This document shows, one piece after another, positions 1 through 32,049 of a stretch of 64,000 nt of DNA. The DNA is from Thelonectria olida (lineage: Eukaryota; Ascomycota; Sordariomycetes; Hypocreales; Nectriaceae). Within the stretch, counting starts at the first letter, position 1, and the number at the start of each line of letters is the position of its first letter. Position numbers and translations under genes: made by a program. The DNA is taken from the NCBI GenBank assembly GCA_020736575.1, contig JAGPYM010000093.1, forward strand, positions 1 to 64,000. The letters are read 5' to 3'. The notes under the pieces were generated by a model. That model was not told where the DNA came from. It saw only the letters and a list, made by a program, of their open reading frames with translations, and made no database searches.

Positions 1-2558
1 AGGAAAGACACCAGGAACTCCTACAACCAATCATAGAGAAGGAACCTATGAAAACCCTCCTAGCCTATTCGCCTGTTCCAATCCCGGAAAAACGGCTGCA
101 CGCACGGCATATCCAAACCTTCACCCAAGCAGCCAATCGAACAGCCGAAGCCTTCCTTAAACAACCTTCCGAAAAGGCCCTCCTAGACTTCCTTCTCCTC
201 CCTAGGGTTCTAGGAATAGCCTATAAGAATAGCCAGATCCCAGCTACCTTAAAGGCCTATCCTAGAACCCGCCCTGACCCCCCGGCCCCCCTGCCCCCCC
301 AAGCAAACCCTAGCCTCCCTCGCCCAATAGAGCCCATCCAGCAGGCTACTAAGTGGCTGGAAAAGGGCTATGTGGGAAAGGCAGCAAGGGCCCTATACGA
401 TTCGGCCCCCCTAGCCCCCGAGAACCAGGCCACCTGGGACATCCTTAGGGAAAAACACCCTATAGGCCAGGAAGACCCCTTCCGGGGGGCTAGGCCGGCA
501 GCCGGCCAACCAGTAGCTAAAGAAGCCATCCAAGACGCCATCTCCTCAACAAATAAGGAGACTGCCCCAGGCCTCTCCGGCTGGACTAGACCCCTGCTAG
601 ACCTAGCTACCCGGGAACCGTCTGTCATATCCTTCCTACGCCTCCTAGCGGATATGATACGCCAAGGAACAGCCCCCGGCCCGGACCTCCTCCGGGCAGC
701 CCGCCTAATAGGCCTCCAGAAAGACGACGGCGGGGTCCGACCTATTGCAGTAGGAGACTTAGTCTATAGGGTAGCTATGAAAGCTATCCTAAAGACCTCC
801 TATAGGTCAGACATGCTCCTGCCCTGGCAGCTAGGGGTAAACACCCCTGGAGGCGTTGAACCTGCTATTTTCATCCTAGAAGAAGCCATTCAGGGAGAGA
901 ATAAGGGCGGCTACACTAGCCTAACTACCCTAGACCTCTCAAATGCTTTTAACTCGATAGAAAGGGCTAGTATAGCTGCAGCTGTAGCTAAGCATGCCTC
1001 CATCCTCTACCGAGCTACAGCCTGGGCCTATAACAAGCCCAGCCTGCTAGTCACAGCAGGCGGCACCTCTATAGCCTCTGCTAATGGTGTCCGTCAGGGA
1101 GACCCGTTCGGGCCCCTCCTTTTCTCCCTAGCTATCCGACCTACCCTAGAGGCCCTAGCGGCTAAGCTGCCCAATGCACTCATAGTGGCCTACCTAGATG
1201 ACATTTTCATCCTCGATAAGGGCCCTGCGGGAAACGCCCTAGCAGCTGCCAATCAGGTCTTCCGGAATTCCCCTCTTACCCTTAACACAAGGAAGAGTAA
1301 GGAATGTAGCATCCAAGACCTAAGGAAAGACGGCCTAGCCGCCCTAGGGACCTTCATTGGCCCCCTAGAGGCTAGGAAGGCTTTCCTAGCAGCCAAAATA
1401 GCCCAACTGCAAGGGGCTATCAAGGCTATGATTGGCCTGCCTAAGCAGCACTTCCTGCTACTGCTACGGGGCAGCATCCACCTCCTCCTCCGGCACCTGC
1501 TGCGGCAGCTGGAACCTAGGGGCCTATTAGCCCTATGGGATACAGCTGACAAGGCTATCCAGTCAGCCCTGCAGGACCTAGCCTCGAGGGGCCCTGGAGA
1601 CCACTCCCTAGACATTCCAAGAGAGCTTATTGGTCTGCCGGCTAGGGAAGGCGGCTTTGGAATCCCTATACATATGGACCTGGCCCCGGGCCTATACCAG
1701 GCAGCCAAAGAGGCAGCTAGAGGGATAATCTCCCAAATAGCCCCCCTCTCAGTGGCTAACCCGGCCCCAGGACCCTATGTGGAAGGGACTGGCCCTAGCG
1801 CTGTGCCCACAGCCCAAGAGGTCCTAGCCAACCATAACAAGGAACACCTCGAGAGCCTCCAGGCATCCCTACAACCCCCGCAGCTACGATCCCTACAGGA
1901 AAACGCCTCCTATCTCGGCCGTAAGTGGCTACAAGTCTTGCCCACTCAAAAATCCCTCCTTTTTGCAGACTTGGAAGCTACTGAGGCTATTAGGACCCGT
2001 TTCCTCCTGCCAATCAAACCCCTAGGATCAACCTGCAGCCACTGCGGAGACCTAGTCTCGACCAACCACGAAGACACCTGTAAGGCAGCTGCCCGCAGGT
2101 GGATCAGTCGCCATAACCAACTAGTCTATGCTTTTCGAAACACTCTCTCTACTAAGACTAGCTTGGAAGTGGAAATCGAGCCCCTAATTGGTCCAAATAC
2201 TAGCCTGCGAGCCGACTTTTCAGCTATCCTAGGCACTAGCCGCTATTTTTATGACGTCAAGGTTGTAGCAATAAATGCTAATTCGTCTAAGGAAGAAGCC
2301 CTTGAGACCCTAGCGAAAGCTGCAGACAACAAGAGGAGGAAATACGCAGCCCTAGGCCCCTTTTTCCATCCAATTGTCATCTCTGCCGGCGGCCTAATGG
2401 AACAGTCAACTGCACAGACCTATAAGAGCCTTCAAAAGCTAGTAGGGCCGGCAGCAGCCTCTTGGCTAGATACAACTATCGGGCTTGCCCTAACGAAGTC
2501 TAGAGCTGCAGCTGCAGCCTCTATTACTAAGTCTAGGCCTAGCCAATCACACCCCTAG
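1..2558 (+). CDS. LINE reverse transcriptase/endonuclease, N-terminus outside the window
   Basis: The frame is open from the window edge (codons start at base 3); the ATG at 48 is internal to the longer protein seen in copy 2. The encoded part contains the reverse transcriptase with the catalytic YLDD box (bases 1191-1202). A CCHC knuckle (C-x2-C-x7-H-x3-C) starts at 2034. A restriction-like endonuclease motif, D-x12-D-x-K, starts at 2214. As far as the two copies overlap, the protein is identical to that of copy 2. It would nick target DNA and prime reverse transcription there. There is no internal stop and no RIP signature, so the copy is recent. A type R2/CRE/MoTeR-like LINE is inferred from the domain order. 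Confidence 0.88.
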   Translation, partial: ERHQELLQPIIEKEPMKTLLAYSPVPIPEKRLHARHIQTFTQAANRTAEAFLKQPSEKALLDFLLLPRVLGIAYKNSQIPATLKAYPRTRPDPPAPLPPQANPSLPRPIEPIQQATKWLEKGYVGKAARALYDSAPLAPENQATWDILREKHPIGQEDPFRGARPAAGQPVAKEAIQDAISSTNKETAPGLSGWTRPLLDLATREPSVISFLRLLADMIRQGTAPGPDLLRAARLIGLQKDDGGVRPIAVGDLVYRVAMKAILKTSYRSDMLLPWQLGVNTPGGVEPAIFILEEAIQGENKGGYTSLTTLDLSNAFNSIERASIAAAVAKHASILYRATAWAYNKPSLLVTAGGTSIASANGVRQGDPFGPLLFSLAIRPTLEALAAKLPNALIVAYLDDIFILDKGPAGNALAAANQVFRNSPLTLNTRKSKECSIQDLRKDGLAALGTFIGPLEARKAFLAAKIAQLQGAIKAMIGLPKQHFLLLLRGSIHLLLRHLLRQLEPRGLLALWDTADKAIQSALQDLASRGPGDHSLDIPRELIGLPAREGGFGIPIHMDLAPGLYQAAKEAARGIISQIAPLSVANPAPGPYVEGTGPSAVPTAQEVLANHNKEHLESLQASLQPPQLRSLQENASYLGRKWLQVLPTQKSLLFADLEATEAIRTRFLLPIKPLGSTCSHCGDLVSTNHEDTCKAAARRWISRHNQLVYAFRNTLSTKTSLEVEIEPLIGPNTSLRADFSAILGTSRYFYDVKVVAINANSSKEEALETLAKAADNKRRKYAALGPFFHPIVISAGGLMEQSTAQTYKSLQKLVGPAAASWLDTTIGLALTKSRAAAAASITKSRPSQSHP

Positions 2559-3600: not shown

Positions 3601-3817
3601 CTAGCTACTAGCTAGTAGCTCTTTTTACCTAGCTTTACTTTTACTTAAAAGCCTGCCTACCCTAGACCCCTCTAGCTAAGAGACTGCCTCTTGCTTAGAC
3701 TGCTACCCTAGACCTAGGTCTTTCTAGCTCTTCTAGCTAGGACTTAGGTCTCCCTACCCTAGACCTCCTACCTTTAGGCACAGCTTGCTGCTGCCCTTGC
3801 TACCGTCCTTGCCTAGC

Positions 3818-6800
3818 ATGCCCTCCCAAGCCTGCCCTAGCTGCAGCGGCTGCTATAGGGATATGCTAGACCACATCCGGAAGAAACACCCCTCCGAGCC
3901 ATTCACAGCCCTCCAACTACAGCCCTTTGGCCTAGTCGACTGCCCAACCTGTCACACGGCCTGCAAAGGCACCCACGGCATCAGGGTCCACCAATCAAGG
4001 GTCCACGGCATCGAGGGCACCTCTAGGGTCTCGACCCTGCCTAGGCTAAGGGATGTTCCTGCTCCCTCGGCAGCCCCTGCCCAACTTACAGCCTCCAACC
4101 CCTTCCTTGCTAGGAGGCAGCAGCCCCCTCCAGCCAATAGGGGCCGCAAGAGGGCTGCTAACACCCCTAGCCCAGCCACCCAGAGACCCCCCCTAAGACC
4201 TAGGGCCGCCTCGAGCAGCTCTCTTGACTCTGACTCGAACGACCCTGCCCTAGAGCCCTGGAACCGCTCTCACGCCCGAGCCCGCAGGCCCGCTAGCCCG
4301 GGCCCGGCCCCCTCGAGCCCCCTAGCTGCCCGAGCCAACCAGAGGCCTAGGTCTATTTCCTCCATTTCCTCAAGCTCCCTACCCTCTATCTCTAGCCTAG
4401 CTAGGAACCCCGAGCCTGCTAGCCCTAGGGACCCCGAGCCGGCTAGGAACCCCAAGCCGCCTAGGAACCCCGAGCCTGCTTGGAACCCCAAGCCTGCTAG
4501 CCCTAGGGACCCTACCCTAGAGGAAAGACACCAGGAACTCCTACAACCAATCATAGAGAAGGAACCTATGAAAACCCTCCTAGCCTATTCGCCTGTTCCA
4601 ATCCCGGAAAAACGGCTGCACGCACGGCATATCCAAACCTTCACCCAAGCAGCCAATCGAACAGCCGAAGCCTTCCTTAAACAACCTTCCGAAAAGGCCC
4701 TCCTAGACTTCCTTCTCCTCCCTAGGGTTCTAGGAATAGCCTATAAGAATAGCCAGATCCCAGCTACCTTAAAGGCCTATCCTAGAACCCGCCCTGACCC
4801 CCCGGCCCCCCTGCCCCCCCAAGCAAACCCTAGCCTCCCTCGCCCAATAGAGCCCATCCAGCAGGCTACTAAGTGGCTGGAAAAGGGCTATGTGGGAAAG
4901 GCAGCAAGGGCCCTATACGATTCGGCCCCCCTAGCCCCCGAGAACCAGGCCACCTGGGACATCCTTAGGGAAAAACACCCTATAGGCCAGGAAGACCCCT
5001 TCCGGGGGGCTAGGCCGGCAGCCGGCCAACCAGTAGCTAAAGAAGCCATCCAAGACGCCATCTCCTCAACAAATAAGGAGACTGCCCCAGGCCTCTCCGG
5101 CTGGACTAGACCCCTGCTAGACCTAGCTACCCGGGAACCGTCTGTCATATCCTTCCTACGCCTCCTAGCGGATATGATACGCCAAGGAACAGCCCCCGGC
5201 CCGGACCTCCTCCGGGCAGCCCGCCTAATAGGCCTCCAGAAAGACGACGGCGGGGTCCGACCTATTGCAGTAGGAGACTTAGTCTATAGGGTAGCTATGA
5301 AAGCTATCCTAAAGACCTCCTATAGGTCAGACATGCTCCTGCCCTGGCAGCTAGGGGTAAACACCCCTGGAGGCGTTGAACCTGCTATTTTCATCCTAGA
5401 AGAAGCCATTCAGGGAGAGAATAAGGGCGGCTACACTAGCCTAACTACCCTAGACCTCTCAAATGCTTTTAACTCGATAGAAAGGGCTAGTATAGCTGCA
5501 GCTGTAGCTAAGCATGCCTCCATCCTCTACCGAGCTACAGCCTGGGCCTATAACAAGCCCAGCCTGCTAGTCACAGCAGGCGGCACCTCTATAGCCTCTG
5601 CTAATGGTGTCCGTCAGGGAGACCCGTTCGGGCCCCTCCTTTTCTCCCTAGCTATCCGACCTACCCTAGAGGCCCTAGCGGCTAAGCTGCCCAATGCACT
5701 CATAGTGGCCTACCTAGATGACATTTTCATCCTCGATAAGGGCCCTGCGGGAAACGCCCTAGCAGCTGCCAATCAGGTCTTCCGGAATTCCCCTCTTACC
5801 CTTAACACAAGGAAGAGTAAGGAATGTAGCATCCAAGACCTAAGGAAAGACGGCCTAGCCGCCCTAGGGACCTTCATTGGCCCCCTAGAGGCTAGGAAGG
5901 CTTTCCTAGCAGCCAAAATAGCCCAACTGCAAGGGGCTATCAAGGCTATGATTGGCCTGCCTAAGCAGCACTTCCTGCTACTGCTACGGGGCAGCATCCA
6001 CCTCCTCCTCCGGCACCTGCTGCGGCAGCTGGAACCTAGGGGCCTATTAGCCCTATGGGATACAGCTGACAAGGCTATCCAGTCAGCCCTGCAGGACCTA
6101 GCCTCGAGGGGCCCTGGAGACCACTCCCTAGACATTCCAAGAGAGCTTATTGGTCTGCCGGCTAGGGAAGGCGGCTTTGGAATCCCTATACATATGGACC
6201 TGGCCCCGGGCCTATACCAGGCAGCCAAAGAGGCAGCTAGAGGGATAATCTCCCAAATAGCCCCCCTCTCAGTGGCTAACCCGGCCCCAGGACCCTATGT
6301 GGAAGGGACTGGCCCTAGCGCTGTGCCCACAGCCCAAGAGGTCCTAGCCAACCATAACAAGGAACACCTCGAGAGCCTCCAGGCATCCCTACAACCCCCG
6401 CAGCTACGATCCCTACAGGAAAACGCCTCCTATCTCGGCCGTAAGTGGCTACAAGTCTTGCCCACTCAAAAATCCCTCCTTTTTGCAGACTTGGAAGCTA
6501 CTGAGGCTATTAGGACCCGTTTCCTCCTGCCAATCAAACCCCTAGGATCAACCTGCAGCCACTGCGGAGACCTAGTCTCGACCAACCACGAAGACACCTG
6601 TAAGGCAGCTGCCCGCAGGTGGATCAGTCGCCATAACCAACTAGTCTATGCTTTTCGAAACACTCTCTCTACTAAGACTAGCTTGGAAGTGGAAATCGAG
6701 CCCCTAATTGGTCCAAATACTAGCCTGCGAGCCGACTTTTCAGCTATCCTAGGCACTAGCCGCTATTTTTATGACGTCAAGGTTGTAGCAATAAATGCTA

Positions 6801-7078
6801 ATTCGTCTAAGGAAGAAGCCCTTGAGACCCTAGCGAAAGCTGCAGACAACAAGAGGAGGAAATACGCAGCCCTAGGCCCCTTTTTCCATCCAATTGTCAT
6901 CTCTGCCGGCGGCCTAATGGAACAGTCAACTGCACAGACCTATAAGAGCCTTCAAAAGCTAGTAGGGCCGGCAGCAGCCTCTTGGCTAGATACAACTATC
7001 GGGCTTGCCCTAACGAAGTCTAGAGCTGCAGCTGCAGCCTCTATTACTAAGTCTAGGCCTAGCCAATCACACCCCTAG
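3818..7078 (+). CDS. LINE ORF: zinc fingers, reverse transcriptase, CCHC and restriction-like endonuclease (1086 aa)
   Basis: The frame is open from a TTG at 3785, but the first ATG is at 3818, and I use it because the zinc fingers begin right after it. Two C2H2 fingers are C6-C9-H19-H24 and C42-C45-H58-H63; in R2-type elements such fingers bind the target. A low-complexity Pro/Ser/Arg linker (residues 85-240) contains NPEPA and NPKPA repeats. The reverse transcriptase covers roughly residues 420-720, with Y632-L-D634-D635 as active site. A CCHC knuckle is C913-C916-H924-C928. D973-x12-D986-x-K988 fits the PD-(D/E)XK restriction-like endonuclease. There is no APE-type endonuclease and no RNase H that I can see. 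The order matches site-specific early LINE clades (R2, CRE, MoTeR). Telomere specificity is inferred from the flanks. The protein looks functional. Confidence 0.92.
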   Translation: MPSQACPSCSGCYRDMLDHIRKKHPSEPFTALQLQPFGLVDCPTCHTACKGTHGIRVHQSRVHGIEGTSRVSTLPRLRDVPAPSAAPAQLTASNPFLARRQQPPPANRGRKRAANTPSPATQRPPLRPRAASSSSLDSDSNDPALEPWNRSHARARRPASPGPAPSSPLAARANQRPRSISSISSSSLPSISSLARNPEPASPRDPEPARNPKPPRNPEPAWNPKPASPRDPTLEERHQELLQPIIEKEPMKTLLAYSPVPIPEKRLHARHIQTFTQAANRTAEAFLKQPSEKALLDFLLLPRVLGIAYKNSQIPATLKAYPRTRPDPPAPLPPQANPSLPRPIEPIQQATKWLEKGYVGKAARALYDSAPLAPENQATWDILREKHPIGQEDPFRGARPAAGQPVAKEAIQDAISSTNKETAPGLSGWTRPLLDLATREPSVISFLRLLADMIRQGTAPGPDLLRAARLIGLQKDDGGVRPIAVGDLVYRVAMKAILKTSYRSDMLLPWQLGVNTPGGVEPAIFILEEAIQGENKGGYTSLTTLDLSNAFNSIERASIAAAVAKHASILYRATAWAYNKPSLLVTAGGTSIASANGVRQGDPFGPLLFSLAIRPTLEALAAKLPNALIVAYLDDIFILDKGPAGNALAAANQVFRNSPLTLNTRKSKECSIQDLRKDGLAALGTFIGPLEARKAFLAAKIAQLQGAIKAMIGLPKQHFLLLLRGSIHLLLRHLLRQLEPRGLLALWDTADKAIQSALQDLASRGPGDHSLDIPRELIGLPAREGGFGIPIHMDLAPGLYQAAKEAARGIISQIAPLSVANPAPGPYVEGTGPSAVPTAQEVLANHNKEHLESLQASLQPPQLRSLQENASYLGRKWLQVLPTQKSLLFADLEATEAIRTRFLLPIKPLGSTCSHCGDLVSTNHEDTCKAAARRWISRHNQLVYAFRNTLSTKTSLEVEIEPLIGPNTSLRADFSAILGTSRYFYDVKVVAINANSSKEEALETLAKAADNKRRKYAALGPFFHPIVISAGGLMEQSTAQTYKSLQKLVGPAAASWLDTTIGLALTKSRAAAAASITKSRPSQSHP

Positions 7079-7459
7079 AGCCCTTTTTCTATTTTAGCCC
7101 TTTTATCTCTTTTTTCTCTTTTTATCTCTTTTTATTCTTTTATCTCTTTTTATCTCTTTTCATCCTATTTATCTCTTTTTATTCTTTCTACTTCTTTTTT
7201 TTCTTCTTTTCTTCTTTCTATCTTTTCTATCTTTTCTATCTCTCTATCTCTTTCTATCTTTTGAATTTTTTCTATCTCTTTCTCCTTTCTATCTCATTTT
7301 ATTCCTTTTTATTTTCTTTTATCTCTCCCTATTTCTATATATCTCTTTTATTTTTATTTTCTCTTATTACTATTTCTATTACCCTTAATATGTTTTTTAG
7401 TATAAAATAAGTAGGCAAATAGCTAGTTATAGCCCTAAATAAACCCTATCCCAACCCTA

Positions 7460-7860
7460 CCTAACCTTCACCCAACCCTCACCCCCTAACCCCTCTCACC
7501 CTAACCCCCTCACCCTAACCCTTCACCCTAACCCTCACCCTAACCTTCACCCAACCCTCACCCTAACCCTCAAAACCCAACTCTCACCTACCTTCACCTC
7601 CTCACCCTAACCTTCACCCAACCCTCACCCTAACCCTTAAATCCTCACCCTAACCCTCACCCTAACCTTCACCCAACCCTCACCCTAACCCTCAAAACCC
7701 AACCTACTCTACCACCTCCCTAACCTTCACCCAATCCCTCACCCCCTCACCCCTCAAACCCTCACCCTAACCAATCCTCACCCTAACCCTCAAAACCCAA
7801 CTCTCACCCTAACCCTCAAATCCCAACCCTCACCCAATCTATTACCCTAACCCTTATATA
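7460..7860 (+). repeat. Degenerate telomere-like repeats (CCCTAA, CCCTCA, CCTTCACCCAA variants)
   Basis: About 400 bases of imperfect C-rich repeats follow the LINE 3' end directly. Many exact CCCTAA hexamers are mixed with CCCTCA and CCTTCACCCAA. The orientation (C-rich on the + strand) puts the chromosome end on the left. The repeats are too divergent for an active telomere and are best read as an interstitial relic or a telomere-adjacent tract into which the LINE inserted. Confidence 0.88.
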
Positions 7861-10800: not shown

Positions 10801-12728
10801 CTGATCCGAAACCCTTTTCCTATAACAATTCTCACTCCTCTTTAACCTCTCTCCTCTCTGTTTCTGGCCCTAAACTACTAACCTTTTCCTTTCCCTTCCC
10901 TACACCTCCTAAAACCGTCCCTATAATATCCTTTTTTTTTTTTTTTTTTCTTGCCTTATTCCTTCCTCTCTCTGCCCCTCTACCTCTTACCAACCTTGCT
11001 ACCCCGTCTACAACCACTATCACCACACGTGCTCCTTTTCTTGTCCTTCTCTGCCCCTTTCACCCTTCCCCTTCCCTTCTAATAACGTTTTGCTTATAAT
11101 CCCTCTTAATACTCAAATTCTTCTTACCCTTTAACTGTCATTATTCTCTCGCTGATATTCCTATCGTCTGTTCATGACCCTACACTCAACTACTCACCAT
11201 ACCCCTTCTAAAAATCCCTAACCCTAACCACAAACACACTTGCCCTTTCATAACCTCCTATATAACTACCGTTATTTCGAAAAACCCTCTTTTAACTAAC
11301 CGTGCACAACTACCGGGAAACTACCCACCTCATAATTATATATATTGCTTTCCAATCTTTATATAATCTTATATCATTTCTTTTTAACCCCCTATTACTA
11401 TATTTCCTCTTGCCTATTAACAATACATTACTCTCTTTACTCATGTAATAACTCCTTTCCTGCCTGCGCCTCTGCAAACCATAACTGACCACCTGCTTAT
11501 ATTTGTTACTTTATACCCTTTCCTTACCCTGTACTAATATACCCGTACCATTAATGCGACCCTATATACTAACCTAAACCTATACCCCTATACTATACGA
11601 TCTCGCAATATTAAATATTATGTTTAATTTCATTATAACGGTTCCTATACTTGTTTCCTAATCTAATATATACTCTAATTACCCAGCGCGTAAATAAACA
11701 ACCTATGTTTAAATAAACCTCGCTTAATTTAAACCTCCCCCAACCCGACTTATTTTAAACAACCCCACACACACACCCGGCCCCATGATTGCCCCCATGT
11801 GCCACCTCCCGACCTATATTTAATATAAACCCATTCTAATATTCACCCCTACTTATAACTCACTACCCTAATCATCCATATATTATTATTGTCTATATCC
11901 TCCCTTTAAAATCGAAACTACTTTAACCCCCCGCAACTTTCCCAATCTATTTTACCCTATCCCAATTCTCCTCTCTTAATCCCATCTCTTCCACTATTTT
12001 ATAAAAATAATAACACATCCGACATAACCTATTCGTCCCTAACCCTACCTACTTAATATATCCTCCTAACCATATATACAACATCTCATCATCTCTGCCC
12101 TATATACACCCGTCCTCCTTCATTAACTTCCTTCTCCAACTTTACCTTCGCTTCGCCCGTATACATTATAAATACTCCCGAAATACCCTTGCTAACATCC
12201 TGTCATATTAACATTCCCCTCCGCTCACCCGCACAAACCGACCTCCATCATTATCCTTTGCTCGCCATCGACTGCATATCCGCTGCGACAACCCACAATC
12301 GAAACATGCTGCAAAATTATTAAATCCCCCCTTCCTGCACATCCCCTTATCCCTCTCTTTGATCCCAACCTGCGCTGCCCACCGTTCCTCATCCTCATCT
12401 CGCCTTGGACACGATTCGGACTTATGTTCCTACTGTTCTCGCCCCTTTCGGTCGACACAACTCCCCGTCTACATTTCTAACTGCTCGATGTAATATTCCA
12501 CTTCATCTGCTTGCTTTATTCGAATTGTGCCGCCTATTACTGCGTCCCGAACCACTTTTTTTATTCTCCCCTATTATCTCGCCGTTCTCTATCTTTTCCT
12601 CACCCTCCATGCTCTCTATCTCTACCTCCTCATATAATGCATTCTCTATATGCTTTCATGCTTATTTAATTCCTAATTGTCGGGACTTATAACTTTATCT
12701 TGCGTGGAACCCTAACCCTTTAAAATTC
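7861..12728. other. Gene-poor subtelomeric tract with a G-depleted + strand
   Basis: The + strand is made of C, T and A, and G is very rare between about 7460 and 9590; whole 60-base lines contain none. G becomes more common towards 12 kb. Several long open frames exist on both strands, but their translations are low-complexity Leu/Pro/Thr/Ser or Arg/Glu strings expected from composition. I see no domain, no convincing splice pattern and no RNA gene. Apart from one 16-bp tandem array the tract holds nothing I can name. Confidence 0.7.
9039..9198 (+). repeat. 16-bp tandem repeat, exactly ten units
   Basis: The unit is CCTGCCTTTTTTATAA. Starts are at 9039 plus multiples of 16 up to 9183. The units are perfect apart from one base at the end of the first, where ATAA reads AAAA in the preceding half unit. 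Each unit supplies the only G in this region. The uniformity suggests recent expansion. Confidence 0.95.
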
Positions 12729-13644
12729 CTACCGACCGTTTAACCGGGTGACTACTTGACATATCCGGCTTGCCTGTATCCCTCCTCCTGCCCTTCCTCC
12801 CCATTCTACTAACCCCCCCAACCACTCATACAACTTGGCCATCTGGTTGCCTTTATATATATCAATCCCATCCCTCTCCATCATCTTTCCAACCTTCTCT
12901 GCCCATGAATCAACTGCCTGCACCCTCTGCGCCACGAATATACGGACTAATAACCCGTTATACTGACAACGCCCCCCCCTTACCCTCTTGAACAACCTCC
13001 CATCGTCGCTTGCGGCCTCCCACTGCTTGCAAATGGCTTGCGGCAACCCGCACTCATAACATGCCGAAAACTTCGCAAACTGTTTCTTCGCAAACATCTC
13101 GTCCTGCACGGCCTCAATGCCCTGCTTCATATTGTCCCATATCTTCAACCCCTTTTGTGGACACTCGTCCATACTGTGGTATGCCTCATCCCGACCATCG
13201 ATCCTGCATACCATACAACATCCATCCCATTCTGCCAATATATCCTCAAACTCGCTTACCTCTCGGGACTCCCGCATCACCTGCAATATCCTCTCCGTTT
13301 CGACTTGTCGGATTATCCGCTGGCTCCGTTGATAATCCGCCTCGGCCGCCTCCTCTTCTTCTTGCTCTCCTCGTATTCCCTCTTTCTCCTCATCGTCAAA
13401 CTCGAATCCGTCCATCTCGGCCAATTCTCGTACATCCCTCTCGACCTGTTGCTGATAACATACATCACACACCTCCTCTCCCTCTATGCACCCGAATCGT
13501 TCCATGCTACCATCCATCTCTCGATCCAACACCTCTCGCCGACAACACTTTCCCTCTGCAAACTCCACTACATCATCGTCCCACGCCCACTGCGCCTCTT
13601 CCCTCTCTCTCTCATGCTGCCGCTGCCGCTGCTGCTTTGTCGTT

Positions 13645-13702
<58 letters not shown>

Positions 13703-16004
13703 TATCGGCCGCATTCGTCTCCCGGGCCTTCTTGGCCCTTGCCTCCAACTGCTGATCCAACCACGAACGGCGTATGACCACGATCGACTCGCTCCTTTGC
13801 CCGTCCCTCCCTCCTCGCCCGCTCTCCTGTGACAAATTCACCAACTGTCGCGGTATTCCGGCATGAACGACCAACCGGACGTTGGGATCGTCAATTCCCA
13901 TCCCTAACGCATTCGTGGCCGCGATCCATCCCGACTCGCCTCCCTCGCTGCTCCTCCACGCCTCGATCCGTCGGGCCTTTTCGTCTGCATTGCCGGCCCC
14001 TCGCCAATATGCCATGCATCCCAATATCGCACCGATCCTCTCCACTCGCTTGATCGTGCCGCCGTATATTATGACCTTGCCGTGCTCGTGTGCGGCCGTC
14101 CACGCCCGGACGATCTCGCACACCCGCTGCTCCACGGCATCGTCTTCCTCGCCTTCCTCCTCTCCCTCCTGGTTAACCCTGACCCTGTATTCTCTCTTTC
14201 GGCCGGTCTTTGTTGTCTTCTTTGCCGTCGGGCCGCCCTGGTTCCCGTCCTCGATGATGTCTACCCTGTATTGGATATTTCGCCGTGTTGTTGCCTCGCG
14301 GAACATCCGCACCCGGTCCGGGTTGAACTTCAATTCCTTGAATAACGCCTTCTCCTGCGTCGGCTTCAACGTGGCCGTCAAACACACCACTGGCACGCCA
14401 AAATCCTGCAACGTCTCCCCTAACCGGCCGATTTGTGGTCGGAATGTCTTGCTGTACTGCAATATTGTATGACACTCGTCCACCACGACCCGGTCCAACC
14501 TCTGCTGCCCGTGCATGCGCTCGACGAATATCCGGAACCCCTTGGTGACGGCCGACTCGGGCGTTACGAACACTAACGATGCCGCTCGCTGGACCCCTCG
14601 GCTGGTCCATACGTATGCGTCGATGCCCATCTTGGCACACCGCGCATCCATGTCGTTCTGCAACGCTACCAACGGCGTGATCACAATCGTCATGCCGTCG
14701 GGCACGCAAAACGCCGGCAACATGAACGTTAAACTCTTGCCGCCCCCCGTTGGTGTGATTTGGACAATCGGCCACTCCCCTCGTGCCACCGCCCGGATCA
14801 CGGGCTCCTGCAACCCACGGAACTCGGCCGCGGGCCCCATCATCTGCTTCAACTGACCCCGGACGTCCATGCGGTGCAACTTACCGAACCGCTTGCGCTG
14901 CATCTCCTCCCGCTCGGCATCAAAAATGGACCGGACCCGCTTGACGCCGGCCCCTAACCCTCGCTCGATCCGGTCCTCCGCCCCGAACCCGAAAAACCGG
15001 TGCCACTGCATGCTGACCTTGCGGAATTGCTCTCGGCTGCGCATTGTGCCCAACTCCCCCTGTCCAAATAACCGCGCGTAAATCAACCCGGCAATGTGTG
15101 ACCCGTGCCCGGCCTGCAAATCGTGAATGCTGTCGACTAAACTGCTGTCCCCATTGTCATCATCGTCGAATTCGTCGCCGCTGTCGCTGCCGTTGGGTCC
15201 GAACACCTTGTTGAAATATCGATTGGAAATCCCAATCGCGATGTGCCTCCACGCACTGATGTTCAACTCTTGACCCGAAAACTGCGTGCTGTACTGCTGC
15301 ATCACTCGTCGTGCTCGATCGCTCGTCCATTTGCATTCTCGAAACCACTCCATGAATGCGGCTTCCTCCTCCCTTTCTTGTTCTTCATCTGTCTCTTCCT
15401 TCGTGCCAGTCTTCTCCTGTTCCTTCTTGACCCGGATCTGTCGGATTTTCTTCTCCTTTCCTCCATCGCCGCTCACCACCTCGTCCGCCCATAAAAATGC
15501 ACTCCTGCTCCGTTTCTGTTTGATCCTACCTTGAACGGCCTGCCAAATTGGCAATACCAACCACATGTACCACACCAACAACTCCCCTACCTTTCGCGGC
15601 AAATATCGGTGGATGATCTTGATATTGCCGGACTTGCGGAAACCCTTGTGGTACATGGTGACGAAACACACCATCCCCTCGTGGATAAAAATGTTCCGCA
15701 CTCCGGCGTTCATCGTGTTCCACATTCGCAATCCCAAAATCTCGCTGGATCGCGCCGGTTGGCCCCCTGTCATGTGCATCAACATGAATAACCGCTCCAT
15801 GAACTGGTTGGCCGTCTGCCCGTATGACTGCACCGCCCTGGTCTGGAATAGTTTCCCGTCCGCCCTCTCGTTGTCGATCCAAACCTTGCGCCGTGCCTGC
15901 CCCTGCCCCTGGGCCTGGGTGTCACCGATCCGTCGCATCACCCAACTCTGCCCAGTCTTCACCCACTCGCGGTTGCGCTCGTCGGCCAAAAACGAATAAT
16001 TCAT
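12729..16004 (-). CDS. Telomere-linked RecQ-family helicase with an N-terminal tyrosine-recombinase-like domain (1091 aa from this ATG)
   Basis: Residues 395-745 form a RecQ-type DNA helicase. They show Walker A GGGKS (421-424, K423), DECH (509-512), a TAT motif (543-545) and motif VI QESGRGGRDG (726-735). A RecQ zinc site follows (C820, C821, C839, C846, C849). Residues 70-312 resemble a tyrosine recombinase: box I TGGQPARSSEILGL (R85, E88), K120 after a YH pair, WRHIAI (R253, H254) and GH-x8-Y (H300, Y309). An acidic insert (273-288) separates the last two boxes. A Thr run (768-789) and a C-terminal Cys/His module (930-992, RCQY at 1012-1015) follow. Subtelomeric position and helicase type match fungal telomere-linked helicases (TLH). 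No OrsD domain precedes it. The frame stays open upstream to a stop at 16188 without another ATG, so the start may be an internal Met after an unseen splice. The recombinase assignment is my inference. Confidence 0.87.
13638..13703 (-). repeat. Trinucleotide repeat (ACN on the coding strand) coding for polythreonine
   Basis: On the + strand this reads as GTC/GTT/GCC-type triplets. In the helicase it encodes a run of Thr with a few Ala between the motor and its zinc site (residues 768-789). Its length is likely to vary between strains. Confidence 0.85.
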
Positions 16005-16301
16005 CCGGTCCTCGCTGCGACCTAACCTGTCGGTTGTTGACGCTTGAATGAACGGGATCGGGTCGATTGTGGGCGGCGGCTTCGGCCATACAGCTCTTTC
16101 TAGTTCTAAATTATCCCCGGGATATTCTGGACTTGCTTGGCAATCTCTCTCCTCGCTGTCGCCTTCATATCTATAGAGGTCGTTATTTTATCTGCCCCCT
16201 TTTCTTTCTGTATGTCAAGGCCATTGGATCCACAACTGCATTCGCATGCAGCTAGGATGGATTTGCTTCTATATCTGCTGCCTAGCTACCGTAGTATCAC
16301 C
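16005..16301. other. Spacer between the two TLH-like genes, with open frame leading into the helicase
   Basis: On the minus strand the helicase frame is open from the TAA at 16188-16190 to the ATG at 16004 but has no ATG. This stretch encodes DPIPFIQAS about 17 codons before the ATG, which resembles the start of the neighbouring protein (MDPIPIASAK). It may be a remnant of a shared N-terminus or an unrecognised exon. The OrsD gene stop is at 16302-16304. Confidence 0.5.
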
Positions 16302-19300
16302 TTAGCCTCTCATATCATCCCAAACCATTCGCGACCACCATCTTAACTGCCTCATTATTTCGGAAGCCTCCATACCGCCTACTATAATCTTCTCCCCCAG
16401 CCACACAGCTACCCCCTCTCCGTCAAAATCGTTCAAACCCTCATCCGCCATACTCTCCATCAGCTCTATCCGAAACTTGGAATTCTTACAGTGGAAGAAA
16501 CCGATGGCGGTATCGTAAGCTTGTCGTCCATACTGGCAGCGGACCCTTGCATCTCGCTCCCATTCCCCAGATGCGCTCTGTGCCCATGCCTCGCAAACTT
16601 CCCGGGGAAGAGCACAACCTTGACAGCCCCCACGAGCCCGCATGCCTTCTTCGTATATAGCTTCTGCCAACTCTGTCTTTAGGGTCTGCTTCCCACCAAA
16701 CGGGCATTGCCGCAGAGTATGCTCAATTTGTGGCCCTCTTACCCCTCGACCTGCACAGAGGCTACATTTGCCCGCCCACCAGTCCATCACAGTCCTCCAC
16801 TCCGCGGCCTCATTACTATCGCCCCAGGACATTTCCAGGCTGGGAATGCCGGAAGGTTGCTCTTCACTAGGACCAGAGGAAATGGCATGGTCCTGATCGG
16901 CTCGTCGATCTGCCTGCTGAGGACTACGGAGATGTAGCTCAAACGCAGTCACAAGTACGTCAAAGACTACAAGGAGCTGTGGTACCCAGGTCTCTCCATG
17001 GGGAACCTTGCGTTCGAACCATTCGACAGCCTGACTCCCTATAGTCAGATCCACGTCATTCTTTCTGGATATGAAAGTGGTCAATGCCTTGCCGAGGATT
17101 TGCTCGTCAAACGCACAAAGAGCGGCAATCGCCCTTCGTATGGCTGGCTTATTACCGCAGAGGCCGTCCGAATCGGTTGCTGACGTGTATGTCTGTCTCC
17201 AACGATCCTTCTCTTCCTCGGTGCTCGCAGAAGATACCCGAAGTCCTATGGCCACGTCCTCGCATATCTGATCGGTCTCAATGCAGAGGCTACAGTTACC
17301 GCGGGCCCGTATAAATCGGTCAAGACGCAGAGTCTCTAGCCAACCGAGTAGTCGCTGAGCCACTTCGGAACCCACAGTGGTGCAATCGTCGAGGTTGTGA
17401 TCCAAGCCCATACCGCCGCGGACGTAACAAAGCTGACAACCAACGGTACCCCATTTCTCTAATTGTTCACCTAAACTCCACAACTTGGTCTTCGCTCGAA
17501 GTAGGTTCTTATCATCGCTGAACCCAACCCGAATGCCAAGGTGGTCGAGTACGGCCTGTCGCCTAACCATCGCGCTGGAGGTGGCAATGTCACCGGGGTG
17601 CCCAAACAGTGGCCGGTGACTCCAATCATCATCGTTGAGAGACTGATCTCGCACGTCTTGACTTGTAAAGTTTACCGGGAGAGTTCGCCTTCGCTTTGGA
17701 GGTGGCACTGTATCTTTCGATCCACGCAGTTGATAATTTGACCTCTTCGTGGAGCCGTTGTGGCGATGTCTGACTTCATCCTGAGCGTTCTGTTCCTGAT
17801 ATTGCCGCCGAGGCTCGCGCTCGAACGCTTCTATATCGTCTTGATGGATTATGCTGAGATATTCAGCCCGTTCCCCTCTCTCTCTTGCTTCTGTTTCACT
17901 CTGTCTGTTTTCATCCTCAGGTGGATCTTGACTACTCGACCGTGGCTGTCGTTGTTGTACCGGTATCGCCCACCCAGGCCTAGGTTGACTAGAGCTCAGT
18001 GGTACAGATGGTTCCGCGAGGGAACGGCCCGGAGTGTTTTCTGTAGCCTCCGGGGCCGGAGTTCGGTCTGGAGAAGTCGATGAAGAGGACACCACTACTG
18101 GTGTGCTTACCACTCTGTCTCTGTCCCGCTTCTGACTAGGGGTTGCCTGTATTTCGGATACTGGCATTTCTGCAGTTAGGATCTCTTCCGCCCCCCTGGA
18201 GGTGAGTCTGGGTTGGTGCCCTAGGATTCGCTCGCGGTCGCTATGAACCTGGGCGTTCATTCTCGGTCTAAGTTTGCTGGGCAAGTGGAGAAACTCGTGC
18301 CACCGGAGGGATGCCCATTCATACAGGTCCAGAAGCTGAGGCTGCATCGTGGTTGGGAACGCTCCGTCAAGACCGTAAGTTGACCCACGCTGCAAGGGAC
18401 GATGTCCGCTCTGCCAAGCGAAGACGACGTTTCGATGGGCGTCCTTGCTTCGATCATCGAATCGATTAAACGGCTGGTATACCTCACGCACGTGCTTTTC
18501 GGTTACACCGATGCAGATCTGCCGAAGAAGTCGAGAGTTTACTGCAAACCCCCAGGCCTCTGTCGTTACCTTTCGAATCACATTGGTGAAGCGGCTGGTG
18601 CGCCATGCCTTGCTATTGGAAGATACGGTCTGGGTTCGGAAGAGCAGCGGCGAGGAACTCTGACCCGCCTCGCTTGGGCTGACAATACCGCGCTCCCTGT
18701 CTAACAAATTGATGAAGGGACGGATATAGGCACAATACTTGAAGACGGCTAACGCAAGCTCGGCTGGAAGGAAACGAACGACGACGAATTCTCGGTTGGT
18801 GGAGCTTTTGGCCTTGTGGTGACGGACCACATAGATAATGTAGCCTTTATAGACGTAGAGACCTCTGGGTCCGAGTTCGTCGTTCTCAACCCAGAGGCTG
18901 GAGAGTTCTGGCCATCGTGGCAGCTGGCCGCCAGTCAAGGACATCCCCGTTCCCAAGAGCTCGCGAAAGTCCTCCTCCTTTTTCAGGTATTGGTTGACCT
19001 CTGACCAGTTCCAAGAATTCCCTCGCGAGAGACACCCACTCCGAGCTGTACAAGCACTCCTGAATAAATCGAGATAGGCCGAGGTAAGTTCGTTCTTGGG
19101 GTCCGTCACGAAAGAGTATCCCTTGTCACAGTTGGCCATGTTGTCTTTGATCTTGAGCAGGTCGATGTCAGGCTCGAGCCCGAACATCAAATCGTTACAC
19201 AGGCGATTGGCCTCTCTGATGAGATATGCGGTCAGGGACCTGAACTGCCCCATAGAGACCTCTGCCCCTTGCCCCCAGCTTACCCTCTGGCCGTCGTCGC

Positions 19301-21149
19301 TCCAGTACAGGAAAAAGGAAGGCGTATCGTTGCGGGCTGCCACGCACCCGTAGGCACGAAGACTTACAAATTCTTCAAACGTCGATTGGGATCCCATGAC
19401 CATGTACCGCCTATGCACCTGCTTGAACCGCTCAAGCTGTTTGAACCGCGGCCGGCGTTCGATTCCTAGAAGAGCATACGGCCGCAGGGGGAGAGCTCGC
19501 TCAAGGAAAAGGAGTCGCTGGATGTATATGAGTCCAGAAAGGTAAGGTGTGTAGGAACGCGCGTTGTGGAAGCTGTTGGTTGCTCCCGAGAATGCAAGTA
19601 TACCGCTGAAGTACACAAGCACCGTCGAGCTTGGTTGGCCATCCGTCAACCGTTCCGTACATAGCGCGAGACTCAGGCCGAAGACGAGCTCGGCAAGGGA
19701 GACAAGGGACTCAACTCTCTCGGGCCTTTTGGCGAAGTCCCCTACTCCATTCTCATCGTCATCGCTAGGTATGTAAACATCATCATCACTGTCCTCATCG
19801 ATGGTGCTGTACAGGTCGCTGTCGTCGTCATCGTCGTCTTCCCTGTCGAGGCCTCCGTAAACATTTCCATCCATATCCATATCCTCATACTCGACTCGCA
19901 TTTCATCCCCACCCGCCTCTTCAGCCCGCTCTTCCGCCTGAGCCACATCCTCGGTATCCAAAGGTAGATTGGCCAGGTCTTCATGATGCCAAATTTCATT
20001 AAGGAAACGATCCAGCTTCTTGTTAAAATGCACGCCAATAAGCCGCTCTCGTTGCTTCGCGTCCATGCGGTATACCCGAAAACAGAAGGCTAATGCTTTT
20101 TTTAGTAGTAAGCGGTATCTGGTGGTTGATGAGGCATGTTTGACCAGTGTGAACGGCTTGGTATAAGGCATATGGGGATGGTTGCTTTTCAGCCAGCAAA
20201 GGAGATTGCGACTCGTCCTGTGAACGGTCTCTTCACAGCGGTCCATAACCACATCCACGACCTTCAAGATTCCATCGATCTTAATCTCATCTTCGCGCGG
20301 GCTAACTAGATCGGTGGAGAGACCAGGGACTCGGGCTGCGCTAGCCAGGAGGTACGGCGGCGCATCTGGCCGCCCATAGAAACTTAGATAGGGTGTCTGG
20401 ATAAGGCAACGGTGCAGGCTTCGGTCCCTATTCCTGTACGTGATGTCCCACCTCGTTCTCTCCAGCCATGGCCGCTGCTCGGCGTACATGGTCGCCGAGC
20501 CGGCCGCTGAGCTTTGCATATCGGCTGCAAGGCCGTGGTTGCGCTGGTGCTCGCGCTCCTGCACAGATCTGATCAAGTCCTGTTGTTCTTGACCAGTCCT
20601 GTCTCGGCGGCTCAAAGCTGACCCACTCATGTGGCCCACAGGCACCGTCGGTCGGGTCAGTTGGCCATCGCGCTCAACAATCCAGTAGACTCGAGACGAG
20701 CCAGAGGCCCAAGCTTGCAAGTAAACGTACTCGAAATATGCCTCCATGTCCGCCCGCCTGGTAGATCTCCGCGGGTGTTGGGGATACTCGGGTAGGTCTT
20801 GGCTATAGTGTTGCATGATGAGAGTGAGGTTGATGGTGCGATAGCTGCAATGCAGACAGGAAAATCCATCGTAAGACCGGAGCCTTTGCTCTTCAGGCGA
20901 GCCGTCAACAAGAGGCGCAGCTCCACCTGAACTTTTCAGCTCTAGTTTAGCCAATACCTTAGAGAGACCTCTCCGCCGAGGTAGGGGGATGCCGTGTTCA
21001 TCACGTAGATGATTGGTAGGGTTAGACCCAACGGGGGAAATGGCGTGTCTGCATTTCTTGTCGAAACAGATCAACAGTCGTGACTTGGGATGGACCCATA
21101 AAGAAAGTGACTCGAGAAACTTAGCGGAGGCAATAGGTATTGGGTCCAT
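16302..21149 (-). CDS. OrsD-domain, TLH-like protein without helicase motor (1615 aa)
   Basis: Residues 20-160 match the fungal OrsD (DUF3505) pattern: C28, C33, H47, H52, then GFSCLHC (C98, C101) with H114. The function of OrsD is unknown. Residues 735-930 correspond to the recombinase-like region of the helicase next door: LTGGQLPRWPEL (R745, E748), HHK (K779), R876 and QSGH-x8-Y (H916, Y925). R-to-K spacing is 34 against 35, and H-to-Y spacing is 9 in both. Acidic stretches cover 421-465 and a basic KRRR lies at 1152-1155, fitting a nuclear protein. Two Cys/His modules end the protein (C1238 to C1296 and C1462 to C1519, the second followed by RCQY at 1537-1540). No Walker A or DECH motif is present. 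The 4.8-kb frame needs no intron. It lies upstream of the helicase on the same strand, 297 bases apart. The ATG at 21149 is the first in frame. Confidence 0.82.
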   Translation of the reverse strand: MDPIPIASAKFLESLSLWVHPKSRLLICFDKKCRHAISPVGSNPTNHLRDEHGIPLPRRRGLSKVLAKLELKSSGGAAPLVDGSPEEQRLRSYDGFSCLHCSYRTINLTLIMQHYSQDLPEYPQHPRRSTRRADMEAYFEYVYLQAWASGSSRVYWIVERDGQLTRPTVPVGHMSGSALSRRDRTGQEQQDLIRSVQEREHQRNHGLAADMQSSAAGSATMYAEQRPWLERTRWDITYRNRDRSLHRCLIQTPYLSFYGRPDAPPYLLASAARVPGLSTDLVSPREDEIKIDGILKVVDVVMDRCEETVHRTSRNLLCWLKSNHPHMPYTKPFTLVKHASSTTRYRLLLKKALAFCFRVYRMDAKQRERLIGVHFNKKLDRFLNEIWHHEDLANLPLDTEDVAQAEERAEEAGGDEMRVEYEDMDMDGNVYGGLDREDDDDDDSDLYSTIDEDSDDDVYIPSDDDENGVGDFAKRPERVESLVSLAELVFGLSLALCTERLTDGQPSSTVLVYFSGILAFSGATNSFHNARSYTPYLSGLIYIQRLLFLERALPLRPYALLGIERRPRFKQLERFKQVHRRYMVMGSQSTFEEFVSLRAYGCVAARNDTPSFFLYWSDDGQRVSWGQGAEVSMGQFRSLTAYLIREANRLCNDLMFGLEPDIDLLKIKDNMANCDKGYSFVTDPKNELTSAYLDLFRSACTARSGCLSRGNSWNWSEVNQYLKKEEDFRELLGTGMSLTGGQLPRWPELSSLWVENDELGPRGLYVYKGYIIYVVRHHKAKSSTNREFVVVRFLPAELALAVFKYCAYIRPFINLLDRERGIVSPSEAGQSSSPLLFRTQTVSSNSKAWRTSRFTNVIRKVTTEAWGFAVNSRLLRQICIGVTEKHVREVYQPFNRFDDRSKDAHRNVVFAWQSGHRPLQRGSTYGLDGAFPTTMQPQLLDLYEWASLRWHEFLHLPSKLRPRMNAQVHSDRERILGHQPRLTSRGAEEILTAEMPVSEIQATPSQKRDRDRVVSTPVVVSSSSTSPDRTPAPEATENTPGRSLAEPSVPLSSSQPRPGWAIPVQQRQPRSSSQDPPEDENRQSETEARERGERAEYLSIIHQDDIEAFEREPRRQYQEQNAQDEVRHRHNGSTKRSNYQLRGSKDTVPPPKRRRTLPVNFTSQDVRDQSLNDDDWSHRPLFGHPGDIATSSAMVRRQAVLDHLGIRVGFSDDKNLLRAKTKLWSLGEQLEKWGTVGCQLCYVRGGMGLDHNLDDCTTVGSEVAQRLLGWLETLRLDRFIRARGNCSLCIETDQICEDVAIGLRVSSASTEEEKDRWRQTYTSATDSDGLCGNKPAIRRAIAALCAFDEQILGKALTTFISRKNDVDLTIGSQAVEWFERKVPHGETWVPQLLVVFDVLVTAFELHLRSPQQADRRADQDHAISSGPSEEQPSGIPSLEMSWGDSNEAAEWRTVMDWWAGKCSLCAGRGVRGPQIEHTLRQCPFGGKQTLKTELAEAIYEEGMRARGGCQGCALPREVCEAWAQSASGEWERDARVRCQYGRQAYDTAIGFFHCKNSKFRIELMESMADEGLNDFDGEGVAVWLGEKIIVGGMEASEIMRQLRWWSRMVWDDMRG

Positions 21150-21509
21150 GATGTCAACCGTTGCTTTTGCCGCTACTACTTTTCGATGTTCTTCTTCTAT
21201 TCCTCTTCTCTTTAATATTAGGCGGAAGACTAAAAGGCGGGAGATAGTAGTATACTACGTAGTAAAGTGGATAGTTGGAACGGGAAGTGGAAGTGGTGGA
21301 GTAGTGAAAGGAACGAGTGCACGGATAGAAAATAGATAAACAACAGGTTGTTTTTGTCGAACCTTGTTACTGTGTCAACGTGCACGGACAAAAAGTGTAG
21401 AATCTAAGGGTGGTTTTTCGGGAAAACACCGGGGAATTTCATGGTAGTCCGGGTTGGCACGGACGAAAAGTAGATAATGCGGCGCGATTTGGATAAACAT
21501 TCGTACAGT
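21150..21509. promoter_or_regulatory. Upstream region of the OrsD-type gene
   Basis: This is ordinary-composition sequence between the gene start and the sharp drop to AT-rich DNA at about 21510. It should hold the promoter of the minus-strand gene. No TATA box can be assigned with confidence. It contains the three related short repeats listed separately. Confidence 0.4.
21317..21479. repeat. Three copies of a GCACGGA-centred motif
   Basis: Copies lie at 21317-21341, 21380-21404 and 21455-21479. Each has the form (T)GCACGGA, two to three variable bases, AAAA, then GTAGA or ATAGA. All are in the same orientation, spaced 63 and 75 bases apart, about 170-330 bases upstream of the OrsD-type start codon. 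They could be protein-binding sites or sub-terminal repeats of an element. Confidence 0.65.
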
Positions 21510-22807
21510 AAGATCCTTCTTATTATAATATAAGTTATTACTAGCAAGGATAACTTTATTAAAAGGGCTAGATTCTATCTAATTGTAACTATTTTATACT
21601 ATTACTAGTATTTTCCTATATTTCTATTTATTAATATTACTTAAGTATTTCTTACTTTTAGGGATGGGTTTAAACTTTTAGTTAGTTTTATTAGAGTTTT
21701 AATACTTACTTTTAAAATATTCCTTTTTTTTATAATTCTAATAGAAAACTTACAAATAATTGCATTTAATAGTGCCAAGTTCTATTAGGCCTAAATTGAT
21801 ATTATAAAAAGTATTTCCTTATTACTATCTTCCTTAATTAGTATTATACTAGGGTTGCTTATTTTAGTTATTATTTCCAGTAGTTAGGTTCTACTTTTTA
21901 TATTATAAGAATTATTTATTATTAATTTTAATAGCTTATCTAATATATTTAATAAGTGTTATTAGTCTTTTATACTTATATAGCTCTTTTTAGACTATTT
22001 ATTTTAATCTATTAAAAAAGAGTAATATAAGGGCGTCTTATCCCTAATAGGATAGCTTAACTGCCAATTAGGTAAATAAAGTTCTATAGTCTAATACTAA
22101 TTTGAGTTATTTAAGTAATTTAATTTAGTTTTTAGCTTTAGACTTTTTATTAATTGTTTTAAAAGCTTATTTAAGTTCTTATTTAAAAATAGTATAACTT
22201 TTATAAATATATTAAATGCATTTGTCTTATTTAGTAGTTTGCTTATTATTATAATTTCTTATAATAGGTTTAAACTAAAGTCCTGTATTACTAGTAAATT
22301 GTCCGGCTGTATAATAGACTTTAGAAAAATTATTATAAAACTAAATAGAATAGTATAAGAAGAATGTATTTATATTAGTAATAAATATCTAGAGGTTGTA
22401 TATATTACTATTAAACTTTTTAAGTGTAATAAGCTTAAGGATTTCTCTAGAGTTACATTTAATAGTAGTAGTAGTAGTAAGGTTATTAAAATTATTAGTT
22501 TAATTTTATTATAAGGCTTATTAGTCTTATTAGATTATAAGGATTCTAATAATCTTATTTTATATTATTTTAATCTTTATATTAAAAGTGCGGACTTCAC
22601 TCTTATACTAGACTTACATTTTACACATATTAAGTTAGAATTGCTTGCAATTGTTATTAGATATTATACTCTAATCTTCTATTTTAATATTTATAGGAGG
22701 AGTAATATAAGCTATATTATTACCTTACTAATACTAGGTAGCTATAATAATAATTCTTAATATTACTTAGGGTAATATAGTAACCTTTTAAATAAGAGCT
22801 TTTAATA
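21510..22807 (-). mobile_element. RIP-degraded internal fragment of a gypsy element (A2), 5' (gag-side) part
   Basis: The stretch 21660-21900 is clearly homologous to 29618-29860 inside element A, in the same orientation, so this is the gag-side interior of a related element read on the minus strand. The bases just left of 22808 match the sequence just inside the 5' LTR of A (30640-30687). The left boundary is the shift in composition at about 21510. The rest of A2, including its 3' LTR, is missing. Confidence 0.75.
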
Positions 22808-22967: not shown

Positions 22968-23380
22968 TGTAATAATTTAGTTAGTTTTCTAATAGATAAA
23001 AACTAGAGGGTTTTAGGTTTATATTAGTAGAGAGATTAGAGTGTTAAGGTCTAAGTGGTATATAAGAAGTAGTAGGTTATTATATTTAGTAATATATTTA
23101 AAATAAATAAGTATAATTAAATTATATTAAAAGCTAAAGTAGTTATATCTATTTAATATATTAAAAGAATATATTTATATACTAGCTATTTTTATAAGTT
23201 AATTGTAATTAACTTAAGTTAAACTGACCTAGTTTAACTTATATAGTTAAGTTATATTAAACTGACCTAGTTTAATATATATGTGGTATTTTATATTTAT
23301 AAGGTAGTTTTTATAAGTTTACTAGTTTTACTATAGCTAACTGCCTAGTCCCTTATAGGGTTATAATATAAGCTGTAATA
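22968..23380 (-). repeat. 3' LTR of element A (413 bp)
   Basis: As read on +, it starts TGTAATAATTTAG and ends GCTGTAATA, the mutated form of a TGTTACGG...CGTTACA LTR read in reverse. It has the same length as the partner LTR at 30688-31100. Confidence 0.88.
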
Positions 23381-23399
23381 TAATATCTTTCCTTTATTA

Positions 23400-30600: not shown

Positions 30601-30687
30601 ATTAGTAGGTTAACTTCTAGATATAATTATAGTAGTATAATATTACTTAGGGTAATATAATAACTTTTTAAATAAAAGCTTTTAATA

Positions 30688-31100
30688 TATAATAATCTAG
30701 TTAGTTTCCTAATAGATAAAAACTAGAGGGTTTTAGGTTTATATTAGTAGAGAGATTAGGGCGTTAAAGTCTAAGTAGTATATAAAAAGTAGTAAGTTAT
30801 TATATTTAGTAATATGCTTAAAATAGATAAGTATAACTAAATTGTATTAAAAGCTAAAATAGCTATATCTATTTAATATACTAAAGGAATATATTTATAT
30901 ACTAGCTACTTTTATAAGTTAATTGTAATTAACTTGAGTTAAACTAACCTAGTTTAACTTATATAATTAAGTTATATTAAACCGACCTAGTTTAATATAT
31001 ATATAGTGCTTTATATTTATAAGGTAGTTTTTATAAGTCTACTAGTTTTATTATAGCTAACTGCCTGGTCCCCCATAGGGTTATAACATGGGCTATAATA
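30688..31100 (-). repeat. 5' LTR of element A (413 bp)
   Basis: Matches 22968-23380 over the full length with transition differences. As read on +, it ends in GGGCTATAATA. Confidence 0.88.
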
Positions 31101-32008: not shown

Positions 32009-32049
32009 TATTAAAAGCTCTTATTTAAAAGGTTATTATATTACCTTAA

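Follow-up and report, generated by a model that had tools for sequence, protein, structure and literature searches.

Telomere-linked helicase (TLH) genes occupy chromosome ends in many fungi and are described, in the portions of the literature available, as RecQ helicases. We analysed a TLH gene, ORF1, and its upstream neighbor, ORF2, in a 64,000-nucleotide stretch (the window) of contig C159 (67,746 bp) from the 52.5-Mb assembly of Thelonectria olida (Nectriaceae). We propose that TLH helicases of the ORF1 family are probably tyrosine recombinases with an attached RecQ motor, and that ORF2 and ORF1 are probably the two genes of a mobile chromosome-end block in which ORF2 lies first inside a fixed inner end. 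The features on which this proposal draws are as follows.

12729..16004, minus strand: ORF1, 1091 aa, telomere-linked RecQ helicase that also has a tyrosine-recombinase-like domain; truncated at the 5' end in comparison with full-length TLHs
14970..15857, minus strand: putative tyrosine-recombinase catalytic domain of ORF1, residues 50-345 (from conservation and predicted fold)
13800..14813, minus strand: RecQ-type motor of ORF1, DEAD 398-550 and Helicase_C 629-735 (Pfam)
16302..21149, minus strand: ORF2, 1615-aa helicase-free paralogue with a zinc-finger-like N-terminus, a recombinase domain mid-protein and a C-terminal part related to that of ORF1
21491..21510, minus strand: inner element end, TACTGTACGAATGTTTATCC in the inward direction, shared unchanged by seven loci whose flanks are unrelated

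The helicase of ORF1 is the same as that of the described TLHs (Pyricularia TLH5, the Fusarium TLH regions and Ustilago UTASa/UTASb). Pfam places DEAD and Helicase_C above threshold, with all remaining rows below it, and the best PDB sequences are BLM, RecQ5, RecQ1 and bacterial RecQ (best 60 of 79). ORF1 is a RecQ helicase by this RecQ-related motor, and a TLH by the relation of the motor to TLH genes together with its subtelomeric position. A protein search returned 1513 relatives, the best 120 of which were used for comparisons; those listed include proteins from Fusarium, Trichoderma and Colletotrichum as well as Pyricularia TLH5 (P0104), which is 43% identical over 68% of ORF1. This similarity, together with a telomere-type long interspersed nuclear element (LINE) and repeats lying outward of the gene, upholds the preliminary description of ORF1 as a subtelomeric helicase. 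Full-length TLHs carry an OrsD N-terminus (P0104 has both OrsD and helicase), and relatives with this zinc finger (PF12013) are mostly about 1450-1750 residues long, whereas Pfam finds no OrsD in ORF1. The ORF1 frame is open across all 1091 codons and stays open upstream of the ATG, where homology to full-length relatives starts at 16019-16115, depending on the relative. Because the alignment to five OrsD-bearing relatives begins only there, we consider ORF1 a short form that lacks the N-terminal 544-645 residues of those five proteins, comprising the OrsD zinc finger and a helical region; its catalytic-type domain is complete despite the missing N-terminal part.

The surroundings of described TLHs also resemble this locus. 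In the sources available in part, TLHs of F. oxysporum lie near telomeric LINEs, as ORF1 does here, and in U. maydis UTASb, which has a core or OrsD but no helicase and is reported as perhaps a truncated piece of a homing-endonuclease gene, can be situated 5' of the RecQ-bearing UTASa, much as ORF2 precedes ORF1 (excerpts of PMC10532341). The portions of the TLH literature compared describe no recombinase domain for TLHs, and the accessible open-access literature gave no link between the two, most subscription papers lying outside the search. In that literature only PMC6070336 has both 'telomere-linked helicase' and 'recombinase', in separate places (Cre as a tool, and a reference title), and a fungal screen for transposable-element fusions treats helicases, not a recombinase-like TLH domain, in the part available (PMC10799480).

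A second comparison is with Starships that have DUF3435 captains. There, according to the excerpts at hand, the recombinase is the first gene at the edge, is transcribed inward and lies about 350 bp from the edge, as does the captain of the Sanctuary element (PMC12506042); ORF2 is likewise the first gene at one edge, reads inward and starts 361 bp from it. The captain recombinase fold is described as similar to Cre, which the predicted fold of ORF1 also matches. Unlike Starships, the locus has a RecQ fusion and no known cargo set, one end of the element is seen here, and on the outer side telomere-like repeats take the place of a second edge. We rejected membership in the DUF3435 captains, as ORF1 and ORF2 are without a DUF3435 match. 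The genome as a whole has 35 DUF3435 matches, several without internal stops, and none is at ORF1 or ORF2.

The recombinase-type domain of ORF1

The preliminary description had pointed to tyrosine-recombinase-like boxes upstream of the motor, and these stand where it placed them: TGGQPARSSEILGL from residue 79, YHKG from 118 and WRHIAI from 252, with R, K, R, H and Y at residues 85, 120, 253, 300 and 309. Its finer points also agree with the protein, in that H300 to Y309 reads GH-x8-Y, the first HxxR position is Ser (Ser250), and the acidic insert it saw between the last boxes corresponds to the acidic stretch DSGDEFDDDDNGDSS. The catalytic-type residues are encoded at the following positions.

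15750-15752, minus strand: R85
15645-15647, minus strand: K120
15246-15248, minus strand: R253
15105-15107, minus strand: H300
15078-15080, minus strand: Y309

We find these residues to be highly conserved in an alignment of 122 rows (the best 120 of the 1513 matches, plus ORF1 and ORF2). R85 is kept in 115 rows, with P in one and gaps in six; K120 is kept in 117, with gaps in the other five; and R253 is kept in 120, with one T and one gap. H300 and Y309 are each kept in 120 rows, with gaps in the remaining two. E88, three residues past R85, is E in 115/122 rows (D in 1, gap in 6). Within residues 1-345 of ORF1, 13 of the 69 R/K/H/Y residues are at least 98% conserved, and all five catalytic-type ones are among the 13 (chance 1.1e-4). 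Loss of R85 and Y309 among homologues, one of the outcomes that the preliminary description named as telling against a recombinase, was not seen. The same holds for a different fold: the fold predicted for ORF1 aligns with the tyrosine-recombinase catalytic core of Cre, XerH, XerA, IntI and type IB topoisomerase, with the same R-K-R-H-Y order. Judged from the alignment and the model, ORF1 shares two hallmarks of the superfamily, namely R, K, R, H/W and Y in order and conserved, and the catalytic-core fold. The His-to-Tyr spacing of nine in ORF1 is also that of known tyrosine recombinases.

ORF1 nevertheless differs from Cre-type enzymes in having no detectable sequence similarity to them, a replaced HxxR histidine, acidic inserts and the RecQ motor. 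The usual His at the first HxxR position is absent: it is S in 109/122 rows of the ORF1 alignment, R or Q in 14/16 rows of a family around ORF2, and G or A in 47/61 rows of a third subfamily around a gene on contig C83. Replacement of this histidine is a family feature. His at this position is not universal in the superfamily, and vaccinia-type topoisomerase does without it.

Several results weigh against the domain being a recombinase. Sequence-profile methods give no link to known recombinases, whether by Pfam, PHROGs, NCBIfam, hhalign or PDB profiles. The region before the motor has nothing above threshold in the first three, and the best hhalign probability against Cre, lambda Int, XerC, XerD, FimB and FimE is 1.4%. 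In a PDB profile search the best 60 of 225 rows are all helicases; in a second search 0/21 rows are recombinases, and the best are mTERF proteins (4.7e-4) at profile positions 338-418, apparently an acidic stretch. Foldseek with both the ORF1 model and a longer, 900-residue model gave nothing at E <=0.001 in the PDB, the ORF1 model likewise giving nothing in viral models; the longer model gave no recombinase match, although in models longer than about 400 residues a domain can go undetected. Moreover, H300 and Y309 fall within a low-confidence part of the ORF1 model, and this weakness, together with the caution due to helical models, slightly reduces our confidence. We rejected a chance resemblance of motifs on the strength of conservation in 122 rows and in three subfamilies and of the predicted fold, and a motif confined to a single gene because ORF2 and the C83 subfamily carry the same five residues.

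Subfamilies, selection and gene order

ORF2, the next gene upstream of ORF1, is 20% identical to it over the recombinase region (blastp E 4e-9), and its own putative catalytic domain is as follows.

18255..19040, minus strand: recombinase domain of ORF2, with R745, K779, R876, H916 and Y925

The ORF2 family consists of ORF2 and 15 matches, a count of at least 15 since only candidates sharing most words were scored. Among these 16 rows R745 and K779 are kept in 15 and H916 in all 16, and R876 is kept in 14 (K in P0137, gap in P0132); the exceptions include a chimera (P0137) and a protein disrupted after the His (P0123). The third subfamily, around the C83 gene, likewise keeps the five residues. 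It was drawn from the best 120 of 143 matches, 59 of which (P0138-P0196) were kept and 61 (P0197-P0257, ordinary RecQ domains) dropped. In an alignment of all three subfamilies (113/121, 14/16 and 47/61 rows, the others being outside the length limits or P0137 and P0123), 15 of 296 ORF1 positions hold the same residue at >=85% in each: G81, R85, R103, K120, R133, P136, Y146, W226, R253, Q297, H300, Y309, S331, W334 and H335. The last three (window 15000-15014) form an S-x2-WH motif about 25 residues past the Tyr that is common to all three subfamilies.

We also compared copies using the ratio of nonsynonymous to synonymous substitutions (dN/dS), computed with our own Nei-Gojobori script from small difference counts. 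Between the two intact C83-type copies, at C83 and C101, this ratio is 0.145 over the whole length; it is 0.217 ahead of the recombinase part, 0.156 within that part and 0.072 in the helicase. For the TLH frame common to C110 and C92 it is 0.096 overall and 0.141 in the recombinase part, and the recombinase-only frame ahead of it 0.49. These low values suggest that the recombinase domain is being kept, at least in the C83/C101 and C110/C92 copies.

The order of ORF2 and ORF1 recurs elsewhere in the assembly. A recombinase-only frame or ORF2-like sequence lies directly upstream of a TLH, on the same strand, in the window and C93, in C83 and in C92; C110 has a recombinase-only frame, and in C101 the TLH has ORF2-like fragments next to it. 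No ORF2 match lies near the two TLH copies at C106 or the one at C108. Given that UTASb can lie 5' of UTASa in U. maydis, the pairing of a recombinase-only gene with a TLH may be old. At C92:15992-21010 and C110:89886-94598 the recombinase-only frame stops directly ahead of the TLH frame, which starts just before its own R box; the preceding GCTAATCGTAG resembles an intron acceptor.

The fixed inner end and the proposed movement

The element ends exactly at 21510, 361 bp upstream of the ORF2 ATG. Contig C93 repeats window 12962-21510 at 99.98% identity, after which homology stops, and the start of ORF2 is found, 100% identical, at the ends of five further contigs. In all seven contigs the shared sequence reaches the very same base, beyond which they have nothing in common. 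Inward of that base the difference-free match to the window extends over 549 bp in C15, 568 in C160, 710 in C51, 812 (of 814) in C149, 821 in C101 and 8374 (of 8547) in C93. An eighth, diverged remnant of the end lies at C77:716023-716105 (88% over 83 bp), with neither ORF2 nor ORF1 beside it in the stretch read. Comparison of the 1.5-kb flanks in 28 pairs, the C77 locus taken whole, gave three matches of 17-46 bp and otherwise unrelated sequence. The base preceding the end is C at 7/8 junctions, the C77 remnant included. About 2.3 kb inward of the C77 end there is an ORF2-like frame pointing the opposite way. The exact end, repeated at seven loci, is DNA evidence independent of the protein motifs and strengthens the mobile-element reading raised in the preliminary description.

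The C101 copy interrupts a 476-residue frame. That frame has no Pfam match of its own; its hAT label comes from a paralogue on C92 (75% identical over 1.67 kb) that has a hAT dimerisation domain (1.7e-17) and runs uninterrupted through the insertion site. A search of the assembly for the other half of the interrupted C101 gene did not find it, the matches being the paralogues at C92 and C87 and some short pieces. Its absence agrees with loss of the distal arm, but a stretch left out of the assembly would give the same picture. In the C83/C101 and C110/C92 pairs homology stops inside or beside coding sequence, without clean element borders.

The Starship-like plan leads us to propose an element of chromosome ends that its own recombinases would move, yet one whose ORF1 and ORF2 are not DUF3435 proteins and whose outer side reaches telomere-like repeats. 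For the cleavage, the acting enzyme (ORF1 or ORF2), the target and the copying to the telomere, we infer the following course. The conserved tyrosine would attack both the element end and a short, C-rich target site, strand exchange would pass through a Holliday junction, and the RecQ motor would open or migrate this junction or the adjoining end. Copying or translocation would then run out to the telomere, and the new chromosome end would carry the block, the distal arm being lost.

Three other explanations deserve consideration. The domain might be an old, structurally kept DNA-binding domain that does not cut strands, like the recombinase-type domain of yeast Ndc10, with the block spreading only by homologous recombination and break-induced replication between chromosome ends. 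We consider this unlikely, as mere binding has no need to keep all five catalytic residues, Tyr included, in three subfamilies, and homologous recombination does not give one exact border against seven unrelated flanks. A similarly low probability attaches to junctions made without a recombinase, by end-joining between broken chromosomes and a free linear DNA capped by telomeres, such as a plasmid-like form. Such joining would agree with the unrelated flanks, at which no target duplication can be scored, and with the apparent loss of distal sequence in C101; however, joined ends are usually nibbled, yet the element end is base-identical in seven copies, and the preference for a preceding C counts against it as well.

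The remaining alternative overlaps with our own explanation and differs in the gene that acts: ORF2 would be the captain-like mover, and the ORF1 domain, being without the N-terminal zinc finger and helical region, a passenger or regulatory, possibly dominant-negative, copy. We regard this as conceivable, though doubtful. In its favor, ORF2 is the gene nearest the inner end, is read inward and lies at a distance close to that of the Sanctuary captain (about 350 bp in the excerpts of PMC12506042), and C92 and C110 likewise have a truncated TLH behind a recombinase-only frame. However, that truncated TLH is under stronger purifying selection than the frame upstream of it (dN/dS 0.096 versus 0.49), and full-length TLHs elsewhere hold both parts in one protein.

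If TLHs are indeed recombinases with an attached RecQ motor, the conserved active site would make them candidate DNA breaking-and-joining enzymes, no longer helicases of unclear role, and their activity could explain the sharp borders of subtelomeric blocks. The fusion would also parallel, within one chain, the known partnership of RecQ with topoisomerase III. More tentatively, and with somewhat less than even confidence, we suggest that TLHs may be the enzymes of a new class of recombinase-led chromosome-end elements. These would be bounded by a fixed inner end and, as the other end, by the telomere, with an outward-reading recombinase gene and then the recombinase-RecQ fusion between them, and would spread by cutting into an arm and replacing all distal DNA.

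Chromosome-end surroundings

Further features of the window lie outward of ORF1.

48..2558, plus strand: second copy of the LINE at 3785..7078, cut by the contig start
3785..7078, plus strand: LINE resembling telomeric FoTeR/MoTeR elements, 5' end outward (our own assignment)
7443..7834, no strand: degenerate tract of telomere-like repeats, variants of CCCTAA, on the outer side of the element genes
12010..12567, minus strand: second, degenerate copy of the ORF1 C-terminal part, interrupted by stops

The left flank of the window is the chromosome-end side, as judged from the tandem LINE copies with their 5' ends leftward and the degenerate CCCTAA-type repeats at 7443-7834. The two LINE copies (48-2558 and 3785-7078) are spaced 4520 bp apart, and a copy on contig C18, 97% identical, is near the terminal TTAGGG array of that contig. 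In F. oxysporum and Magnaporthe the LINEs that they resemble sit at telomeres with the 5' end outward (available portions of PMC12857005). The window LINEs have C-terminal CxxC-x7-H-x3-C, RHN and RAD motifs that, in our own reading, resemble the restriction-enzyme-like (REL) endonuclease of FoTeR/MoTeR1 and SLACS/CRE.

On the other side, a large AT-rich (about 20% GC) inverted duplication with arms of up to 1736 bp at 89% occupies window 23037-39737 and looks mutated by repeat-induced point mutation (RIP). GC content is 54-57% in ORF1 and ORF2 versus 21% in the flank beyond 21510; therefore the adjoining element itself is not RIP-like.
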